This document shows, piece after piece, positions 20,694 through 23,147 of a stretch of DNA of 64,000 nt (positions are counted from its first letter, which is position 1; each line of letters opens with the position of its first letter). The position numbers and the translations under genes are program-made. This DNA comes from Caldicellulosiruptor acetigenus (GTDB lineage: Bacteria; Bacillota; Thermoanaerobacteria; Caldicellulosiruptorales; Caldicellulosiruptoraceae). The stretch covers positions 585,501-649,500 of the forward strand of contig NZ_CP113866.1 of NCBI RefSeq assembly GCF_026914305.1. The letters run 5' to 3'. Below the pieces are notes generated by a model, which did not search any database, had not been told where the DNA came from, and was given only the letters and a program-made list of their open reading frames with translations.

Positions 20694-21188
20694 ATGGCAG
20701 ACATGATGGTAAGTAGTAGCACAAACGTATCAAGTTCTACCCAAGGTTTAGCTACTTCATCTACCAAAAATGTGCTTGGCAAACAGGAGTTTTTAAATCT
20801 TTTGGTTACACAGCTAAGGTACCAGGACCCGTTAAAACCAATGGAAGACAAAGAGTTTGTTGCTCAGCTTGCCCAGTTTTCTGCGCTTGAACAGATGCAA
20901 AACTTAAATGAGTCGTTTGAACTTTTAAAAGCCCAGAGCATGATAGGAAGATATGTTGTGGCAACGAATCCACAGGATTCTTCAAAACAGATTGAAGGAA
21001 GAGTTGAAAGTGTTAAAGTAGATGGCAGCAAAGTATATCTAAAGGTGAACAATACAGAAATATCTTCTGAGAATGTGAAAGAGATTTATTACGCATACTC
21101 TGAAGAGGTTTTATCAGATATTCTCAGCAAAGTACCATCAAAAGAAGAACTGCTTGAAATATTAAGCTCCTTACAAAAAGGAGAATGA
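20694..21188 (+). CDS. flgD: Hook capping protein FlgD
   Basis: A 164-residue scaffold that caps the growing hook. The conserved N-terminal core is K-Q-E-F-L-N-L-L-V-T-Q-L-R-Y-Q-D-P-L-K-P and then E-F-V-A-Q-L-A-Q-F-S. It is short, lacking the larger FlgD C-terminal Ig-like region, as is common in Firmicutes. Its stop overlaps the next start (ATGA). Confidence 0.93.
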   Translation: MADMMVSSSTNVSSSTQGLATSSTKNVLGKQEFLNLLVTQLRYQDPLKPMEDKEFVAQLAQFSALEQMQNLNESFELLKAQSMIGRYVVATNPQDSSKQIEGRVESVKVDGSKVYLKVNNTEISSENVKEIYYAYSEEVLSDILSKVPSKEELLEILSSLQKGE

Positions 21189-21553
21189 GGAATATGGCAA
21201 TTGATAATGTTAGAAGAATCATTACTGGTGGTCAAAGTGGTTATATATCAAATGTAACTAAGCAAGCTACAGAAAATTTTGCAAGTATTCTTTCTCAAAC
21301 TCTTAAAATTTCAAAACACGCAAACGAAAGGCTGAAACTTCAGAATATAGATTTAGATGAAGCTACTTTGGACAAACTTGAACAGGCTGTGAAGAAAGCA
21401 GAACAAAAAGGTCTTAAGAACGATGTACTTGTTTTAAATGGAAATAAGGCGTATATAGTAAATATTAAAAACAAGGTTGTTGTGACTGTAAAAGATGTGT
21501 CAGGCTTGAAAGATAACATATTCACAAACATTGATGGTGTGCTGATGATTTAA
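21185..21553 (+). CDS. Flagellar operon protein of the TIGR02530 type
   Basis: A 122-residue protein between flgD and flgE, coupled to flgD by a four-base ATGA overlap. Family features are G-Y-I-S-N-V near residue 20, F-A-S-I-L-S-Q-T-L, S-K-H-A-N-E-R-L, and the C-terminal Y-I-V-N-I-K-N-K-V-V-V-T-V. The family is found in flagellar operons of Firmicutes and spirochaetes, and its function is not established to my knowledge. A second ATG at 21194 is possible. Confidence 0.85.
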   Translation: MRNMAIDNVRRIITGGQSGYISNVTKQATENFASILSQTLKISKHANERLKLQNIDLDEATLDKLEQAVKKAEQKGLKNDVLVLNGNKAYIVNIKNKVVVTVKDVSGLKDNIFTNIDGVLMI

Positions 21554-21560
21554 ACTAATT

Positions 21561-21667
21561 GGGGGATGGACCCGCAAGATGGGAGGTCCCCCGAAGAAGG
21601 ACCTTTCTGACTGACAGAGGAAAGGTCCAAAAAAGAGAGAGATACCATGTCAACGAAAAAGGGGGAT
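21561..21667 (+). promoter_or_regulatory. Structured flgE leader with competing pairings and an anti-ribosome-site element
   Basis: This 115-base gap holds four alternating segments: GGACC (568-572), GGTCC (585-589), GGACC (599-603) and GGTCC (624-628), read as 21568 and so on. Segments 3 and 4 belong to a perfect 9-bp hairpin (21599-21607 with 21620-21628), but segment 2 can pair with either 1 or 3. The C-run TCCCCC (21587-21592) can pair with GGGGGA at 21561-21566 or with the flgE ribosome site GGGGGA at 21661-21666. No T-run follows, so it is not an intrinsic terminator. It resembles no riboswitch I know. Function is inferred from pairing only. Confidence 0.55.
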
Positions 21668-21668
21668 T

Positions 21669-23147
21669 TTGTCAAAGATGATGAGGTCAATGTTTTCATC
21701 TATCTCTGCGCTTCGCGCTCACCAGACCAGGATGGATGTGATTGGTGATAACATCGCCAATGTAAATACAGTGGGGTTCAAGTCAAGCAGGGTGACATTT
21801 GCATCTGTTTTTGCCTCTGTGTTAAAATCAGCATCAGCTCCTGATACAGCCTCTGGAAGAGGCGGATCAAATCCTATGCAGATAGGACTTGGTGTGTCTG
21901 TTGCCTCTGTTGATATGAACATGACAAGAGGAAGTCTTCAGCGAACCGATAATCCCACAGACCTTGCAATTGAAGGCGACGGATTTTTTGTGGTGGGTGG
22001 GGATGGAAAAGCTCCGCGCTTCACAAGGGCAGGAAATTTCAGCTTAGACAAAATGGGAAATTTAGTGACAGCAACAGGCTTAAATGTGCTGGGGTGGATG
22101 TATGACCCTGTAAACAATCAGATTGACACCACAAAATCACCTTCAAAGATAAACATACTTGCATTTCCCACTCTGCCTCCCAAGGCAACAGATAAGATTA
22201 GTTTTGATGGTAATTTGAGCGCTGATACAAAGATATATTCAGGACAGATAACAAATTACGAGGACTTATTAAATGTACCCGCTGACAGCAAGTATTCAAC
22301 AAGTTTTAAAATTTATGATTCGCAAGGAAAAGAACACACATTGCAGCTTACGTTTGTAAAAACAGGCGATAACACATGGGAATGGTTTGTGGATGCTCCG
22401 AGGGTAAAGAAAAATCTTGGTACTGCTCAAAATCCGGACGAGAAATATGTGTATGTTGATGAAATGCTGGATGCTAACAATGCTTATGACAACTTCATCG
22501 CAAGAGGAACAATTACTTTTGGGCAAGCTGGTAAAGTTTTTGATAATGAAGATACAGCTAATGTGGTTGAAGGTATTACTATTACAGGGGGAAGATTTAT
22601 AAATAGTGGGGATGGAACTTTCACAATAAAATTTAAGAACGATGTTGTAAATCCTATCACATTAAAAGTTAACAGTGCTGAGTTTGATGTAAATGACAAT
22701 ACAAATATTGCATTTTTCCTCAAAAATATAACACAGTTTGGTAATATGGAAAGCTCGATAAGAGTTGCGCAAATGACAGGATATGCCGCAGGGAGTCTTC
22801 AGGGATTTAACGTTGATGCATCAGGCAAGATTACAGGTGTTTACTCAAATGGTTTGAACCAGCTGATAGGACAGATTGCAATTGCTACATTTGCAAACCC
22901 TGCAGGACTTCAGCGAATTGGAGATAACCTTTATATAAACACCGTAAACTCAGGTGACCCAGAGATTGGAACACCTGGTTCTGGTTCGAGAGGTACAATA
23001 TCTCAGGGAACGCTTGAGATGTCAAATGTTGATTTGGCAAAAGAGTTTACAGACATGATAGTTACCCAAAGAGGGTATCAGGCAAACGCAAGAGTGATAA
23101 CAGCATCAGATGAGCTTTTGCAGGATTTGGTAAATATTAAGAGGTAA
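21669..23147 (+). CDS. flgE: Flagellar hook protein FlgE
   Basis: A 492-residue hook subunit. The N-terminus M-M-R-S-M-F-S-S-I-S-A-L and N-I-A-N-V-N-T-V-G-F-K are classic, as is the C-terminal Q-R-G-Y-Q-A-N-A-R-V-I. The start is uncertain: TTG 21669 is well spaced from GGGGGATT, while ATG 21678 or 21681 would give the family's usual M-M-R-S-M. The leader upstream is structured and a strong double hairpin follows, suggesting that expression of this abundant protein is tuned after transcription. Confidence 0.94.
   Translation: MSKMMRSMFSSISALRAHQTRMDVIGDNIANVNTVGFKSSRVTFASVFASVLKSASAPDTASGRGGSNPMQIGLGVSVASVDMNMTRGSLQRTDNPTDLAIEGDGFFVVGGDGKAPRFTRAGNFSLDKMGNLVTATGLNVLGWMYDPVNNQIDTTKSPSKINILAFPTLPPKATDKISFDGNLSADTKIYSGQITNYEDLLNVPADSKYSTSFKIYDSQGKEHTLQLTFVKTGDNTWEWFVDAPRVKKNLGTAQNPDEKYVYVDEMLDANNAYDNFIARGTITFGQAGKVFDNEDTANVVEGITITGGRFINSGDGTFTIKFKNDVVNPITLKVNSAEFDVNDNTNIAFFLKNITQFGNMESSIRVAQMTGYAAGSLQGFNVDASGKITGVYSNGLNQLIGQIAIATFANPAGLQRIGDNLYINTVNSGDPEIGTPGSGSRGTISQGTLEMSNVDLAKEFTDMIVTQRGYQANARVITASDELLQDLVNIKR

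Follow-up and report, generated by a model that had tools for sequence, protein, structure and literature searches.

The flgE leader and its hairpins

The sequence analyzed here is a 64-kb stretch of DNA, referred to below as the window, from the 2.74-Mb genome of a Caldicellulosiruptor-like bacterium. It encodes the hook protein downstream of the hook cap protein and a flagellar protein of the TIGR02530 family, with a structured RNA between the latter gene and flgE (local order: flgD, TIGR02530-family gene, RNA, flgE). The features of this locus are as follows.

20694..21188, + strand: flgD, hook cap (PF03963)
21185 or 21194 (alternative ATG starts) to 21553, + strand: TIGR02530-family flagellar gene (PF12611, Flagellar_put), whose product is a candidate RNA-binding partner, judging by its co-occurrence with the RNA and its RelE/ParE-like predicted fold
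21561..21592, + strand: hairpin H1 (P2 of the wider family), recognized from its fold, from its conservation in 12 genus members, with a C-G pair doubly changed to U-A, and from the sister genus
21561-21567 (GGGGGAU) with 21586-21592 (GUCCCCC), + strand: outer stem of H1
21568-21570 (GGA) opposite 21584-21585 (AG), + strand: internal loop of H1
21571-21574 with 21580-21583, + strand: inner stem of H1
21599..21628, + strand: hairpin H2 (P3 of the wider family), recognized from compensatory changes and as the best match of the family model R3 (see below) in the whole window
21599-21608 with 21619-21628, + strand: stem of H2, 10 pairs
21609-21618, + strand: conserved loop of H2, GACUGACAGA
21661..21666, + strand: GGGGGA, core of the flgE ribosome-binding site, within AAAAAGGGGG, invariant in 12 genus genomes and in the sister genus
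21678..23147, + strand: flgE, hook protein, with the ATG at 21678 assigned by homology (NF004241 and TIGR03506 matches)

The sequence-only reading of this region correctly placed a candidate cis-regulatory RNA in the flgE leader but took flgD for the adjoining upstream gene, overlooking the TIGR02530-family gene that intervenes. The 11-base gap between the flgE ribosome site and its ATG (21661-21678) is unusually long; this spacing is common to most of the genus and increases to 13 in some members. A short overlapping frame (21647-21750) crosses the flgE start in another frame, and its ATG at 21647 is not conserved in the aligned relatives.

All sequence motifs of the proposed switch are found exactly where that reading had put them: GGACC at 21568-21572 and 21599-21603 (segments 1 and 3), GGTCC at 21585-21589 and 21624-21628 (segments 2 and 4), GGGGGA at 21561-21566 and again as the ribosome site at 21661-21666, and TCCCCC at 21587-21592. 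No other part of the 64-kb window holds two GGACC and two GGTCC within 107 bases, and only 1 in 20,000 local shuffles contained such a set. The leader also folds better than its dinucleotide shuffles (z = -2.5, with 2 of 200 folding as well).

When 41 genomes were searched, each of the 12 from the genus proved to carry the leader, and the sister genus had part of it. Two hairpins stand out in the genus alignment, with loops that do not vary and with compensatory changes: the C13-G21 pair becomes U-A in H1, and in H2 three pairs have changed on both sides. H1 contains segments 1 and 2, both conserved, with the GGA of segment 1 in the internal loop, and H2 has segment 3 as one strand and segment 4 as the other. 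Segment 3 varies in 6 of the 12 genus members and segment 4 mostly tracks it (GGACC/GGUCC, GGGCC/GGCCC), while segment 2 stays GGTCC, so that the alternative pairing of segments 2 and 3 is left without compensatory change. Covariation among relatives, by which the switch was to be judged, is thus seen for the hairpin pairs, including 3-4, and not for 2-3; the alternation of the four segments is itself peculiar to the genus. TCCCCC, which had been expected to capture either GGGGGA, is not retained outside the genus: its position in the sister-genus copy reads GGCCCC, and its counterpart in Thermoanaerobacter, where the ribosome site is an ordinary GGAGG, is GGGGGCUU. None of the 12 genus members shows variation in TCCCCC or GGGGGA, and a TCCCCC-GGGGGA pairing may therefore exist as a genus-specific feature.

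A leader RNA family in flagellar operons

Comparison with Rfam 15 at the gathering (curated) thresholds returned no match for the window stretch or for five relatives, in agreement with the earlier assertion that the element belongs to no known riboswitch class; the c-di-GMP riboswitches were included in that search. Five further relatives gave no match at E ≤ 1, and the window produced only chance-level matches, the best one (E = 1.6) being far below the thresholds. A known family from Rfam could thus be ruled out. The same applies to a terminator, as no GC-rich stem leading into a T run, as expected of an intrinsic terminator or attenuator, was found in 21400-21800, and to a repeat or mobile element, since R1, the covariance model built from the window's genus, matched once per genome and in the flgE leader alone.

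With subthreshold scores, R1 also found five Thermoanaerobacter-like leaders, located exactly at flgE. These fold as a clean three-way junction, in which the last codons of the upstream gene pair with the strand before the ribosome site (P1), P2 carries the GGA internal loop, and the P3 loop is of the GANNGACNGA kind. A model built from these leaders (R2) matched at flgE in 74 of the 398 Bacillota genomes searched; it also uncovered second copies in front of flgG. The third model (R3), built from 77 diverse copies, found the RNA in 269 of the 398 Bacillota genomes, or about two-thirds of those sampled, representing 192 of 266 genera. As a control, 200 genomes from the phylum of an alphaproteobacterium gave only 6 weak matches, none below E = 0.014. 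The RNA is also present in Thermobacillus and in Coprothermobacter, which we take to represent a phylum different from Bacillota.

In most Bacillota, the family has the P1-P2-P3 three-way junction architecture, with a conserved internal loop in P2 (GC-Y-GGA-CC / GG-RR-GC) and a P3 loop with the consensus GANYGAYNGA. The conserved unpaired positions are G-G-A in P2 (97 to 100%) and G-A-N-Y-G-A-Y-N-G-A in P3; the P3 loop could be closed by tandem G-A pairs. The covariation score was 0.554 for 77 sequences (0.200 ± 0.008 when shuffled and at most 0.114 when slid), 0.558 for 69 copies that a pattern scan had picked up in named genomes (0.169 when shuffled), and 0.579 for 45 copies, nearly all of them flgG leaders (0.222 when shuffled); these alignments were fitted to the model and are biased towards it, and early MAFFT alignments give the same pairs. 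P1 covaries in all three of these sets from other Bacillota. It is nearly certain that the structured RNA is real, and the family it represents is widespread and apparently undescribed.

The window copy belongs to this family by its P2 and P3 hairpins, with their conserved loops, in front of flgE. The best R3 match in the whole window is a weak one (21601-21626, P3 only, E = 0.013); other copies from the genus score from 3e-4 to 0.03, and the sister-genus copy (L013) scores 1.4e-10. Through R1, the window is linked with the sister genus (E = 3.4e-4 per genome for L013/L043), where the RNA has the same gene neighbors. Flank pairing that could form P1 in the window's genus is mostly no better than in shuffles, and no second copy was found in the flgG leader of the window genome. 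Lacking a supported P1 and an flgG copy, the window member is a reduced variant of the family.

The confident matches are located before flgE or flgG, with three exceptions. An Oscillospiraceae metagenome-assembled genome (MAG; L312, 1501-1577) has a copy before the hook-associated axial gene flgK, in addition to the one at flgE. In Clostridium sp. KNHs205 (L313, 1501-1559), the copy precedes a gene for MAIAGVETGYSYQSSF..., by eye neither a rod nor a hook protein; in L352, it follows flgF, and the next frame has no assigned identity. In the pattern scan, 68 of the 69 model matches precede flgE, flgG, or flgK (in 4 of these, the contig or locus ends before flgE, with a TIGR02530 gene upstream), and the remaining weak match is due to chance. 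Among 40 extra copies, 32 were found before flgG, six after TIGR02530 at flgE, and one after flgF; one was a chance match. The weak off-target matches L145, L173, L201, L315, L316, and L355 were also taken as chance. On one contig of a Selenomonadales MAG, two identical copies of the RNA (L317 and L318), with a divergent paralogue of flgE, are separated by ∼47 kb and point in opposite directions, which reflects either duplication or an assembly effect.

The upstream gene extends ∼16 bases into the RNA and has its stop codon where P2 begins. In 153 relatives, the ribosome site starts at a median distance of 11 bases past the RNA and overlaps it in only 6.5%; accordingly, a fold that hides this site, as envisaged in the sequence-only reading, is not a general mode of action for the family.

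Association with the TIGR02530 protein

The distribution of the RNA follows that of the TIGR02530 gene. In a sample of 149 Bacillota genomes, 130 were flagellated and 114 of these encoded TIGR02530; the RNA was present in all 114 and in none of the 16 flagellated genomes without this gene (Fisher's test, 8e-21, uncorrected for shared descent). The standard search had recovered it in 112 genomes, the other two being the one with the window's own variant and G175, an apparent exception that was removed by an unfiltered search of its leader (E = 1.9e-9). The same unfiltered search of seven flgE leaders from genomes without TIGR02530, and of that from G065, detected nothing below E = 0.29. The 16 genomes span 10 families, and the split runs within single families and, once, within a single genus, in which G020 has both the RNA and TIGR02530 and G014 and G015 have neither. 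The flgE copy of the RNA could vanish passively together with the TIGR02530 gene, since P1 and this gene overlap. The flgG copies, which are distant from the TIGR02530 gene, are likewise missing wherever it is missing. Sampling for TIGR02530 covered Bacillota and Coprothermobacter; the gene also occurs in genomes of Geobacter and Bdellovibrio.

Alignment of 60 members of the TIGR02530 family revealed invariant Ser, His, Arg, Lys, and Thr residues. Two AlphaFold models of the protein (mean pLDDT of 80 and 79) gave best PDB matches with Z scores of 6.0 and 6.3 over 67 aligned residues (rmsd of ∼3), which is below Z = 8, and a match at Z of ∼6 is below the safe level. In both separate models, nearly all the matches at Z of 5 to 6.3 were to the RelE, ParE, HigB, and YafQ proteins. 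The Pfam domain DUF4258 weakly matches 34 of the 60 members, a possible link to the RelE-like toxins. Foldseek alone gave no E value below 0.02, and a profile search against PDB sequences yielded nothing useful. The predicted RelE/ParE-like fold of TIGR02530 is thus suggestive only. FlgV, another conserved flagellar gene once called RNA-binding, encodes a distinct protein (PMC11607428). Given the strict co-occurrence and the predicted fold, the best explanation of both is that TIGR02530 is likely the reader of the RNA.

Possible mode of action and alternatives

Sequence comparison establishes the RNA, its structure, its place, and the strict link between its occurrence and that of TIGR02530. 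What we infer from it is that TIGR02530 binds the RNA directly, along with the sign of its effect and the step (translation or processing) at which it exerts control. With slightly better than even chances, the element is a cis-acting leader RNA, rather than a self-contained switch, that is read by TIGR02530 and sets the synthesis of the hook and rod proteins. In most Bacillota, the 5' strand of P1 is supplied by the last codons of the upstream gene, and the RNA ends ∼11 bases before the flgE or flgG ribosome site. The TIGR02530 protein, encoded directly upstream of flgE, would recognize the P2 and P3 loops and, once bound there, control translation or cleavage of the mRNA, so that production of the hook and distal-rod proteins would be correct in amount or in timing. 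A bolder version of this proposal, whose chances fall a little short of even, is that a RelE-like protein, whose annotation has long gone no further than that of a flagellar operon protein, has turned into a sequence-specific reader or cutter of a three-way-junction RNA that precedes the axial genes flgE and flgG and, in some cases, flgK, so that hook and rod synthesis is coupled to assembly, and that the two form a new RNA-protein regulatory pair conserved across Bacillota and Coprothermobacter.

Such an arrangement would resemble several known systems. In ribosomal protein leaders, which are leader RNAs that bind a protein of their own operon, a protein encoded beside the element similarly binds a structured leader, as TIGR02530 probably does; in contrast to these, TIGR02530 is not ribosomal and is proposed to act also at a distant locus, flgG. 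The Salmonella flgE gene is under posttranscriptional control, as proposed here for the hook gene of Bacillota; R3 had no match below E = 0.014 in the 200 control-phylum genomes. The c-di-GMP riboswitches (GEMM) are likewise compact folded RNAs before motility genes but differ in the junction and loops, in line with the lack of an Rfam match to any class. A further parallel is found in Bacillus subtilis, in which the leader of the flagellin gene (hag) is under FliW-CsrA control (PMC6529632) and the mRNA of a flagellar structural gene is likewise read by a dedicated protein system that matches synthesis to assembly. The present system would differ in its targets (flgE and flgG), in its larger and different RNA, in the candidate protein, and in the presence of csrA, which does not track that of the RNA.

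The alternatives to a TIGR02530-read leader are less probable to varying degrees. An mRNA processing or stability element, whose fold would set a cleavage point or protect the processed 5' end of flgE or flgG without TIGR02530 as a direct partner, is doubtful, although it deserves the most attention among them. It would allow these high-copy genes to be expressed above their operon neighbors and would suit both the intraoperon position, which is confined to genes with products required in large numbers, and a ribosome site that is mostly outside the fold. However, it does not predict the all-or-none association with TIGR02530, and the conserved unpaired loops point to recognition rather than to a plain stabilizer. 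Those same loops, set in a three-way junction before motility genes, are typical of ligand-binding RNAs and could be taken for a riboswitch that binds a small molecule, such as a second messenger, and alters access to the ribosome site. The lack of an Rfam riboswitch match, the location at internal genes rather than operon starts, the strict tie to one protein, and the absence of a visible conserved expression platform, with the ribosome site mostly outside the RNA, make this improbable.

Nearly all the targets are axial proteins exported by the flagellar type III system, as would be expected if the RNA were a signal directing hook and rod mRNAs to the export gate, to be translated locally. 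In the sampled loci, however, no copy was seen in front of other exported genes, and such a role appears quite improbable. A CsrA target of the FliW-CsrA-flagellin kind is hardly more than a slim prospect: the GGA in P2 is almost invariant and csrA is present in the window genome, but a csrA match over the cutoff is missing in 22 of the 114 RNA-bearing genomes and present in 9 of the 16 RNA-less flagellated ones, and the GGA lies in an internal loop, in a YGGACC context, with the ribosome site outside. The self-contained switch built on alternating GGACC/GGTCC pairings fares worst, given that segments 3 and 4 covary as a single hairpin, even though its sequences are present as described.

If TIGR02530 does read this RNA, assembly of the flagellum, which requires hook and rod proteins in set numbers and order, would involve a posttranscriptional layer common to most of the flagellated Bacillota sampled, including gut Lachnospiraceae and industrial thermophiles. 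Rfam has no entry for this RNA layer, nor did the literature searched mention it or contain any functional study of the RNA or of TIGR02530. TIGR02530 is widespread among flagellar genes and has had no role assigned to it; the proposed pairing provides a first testable function and may be an example of a toxin-like fold converted to a specific mRNA regulator.
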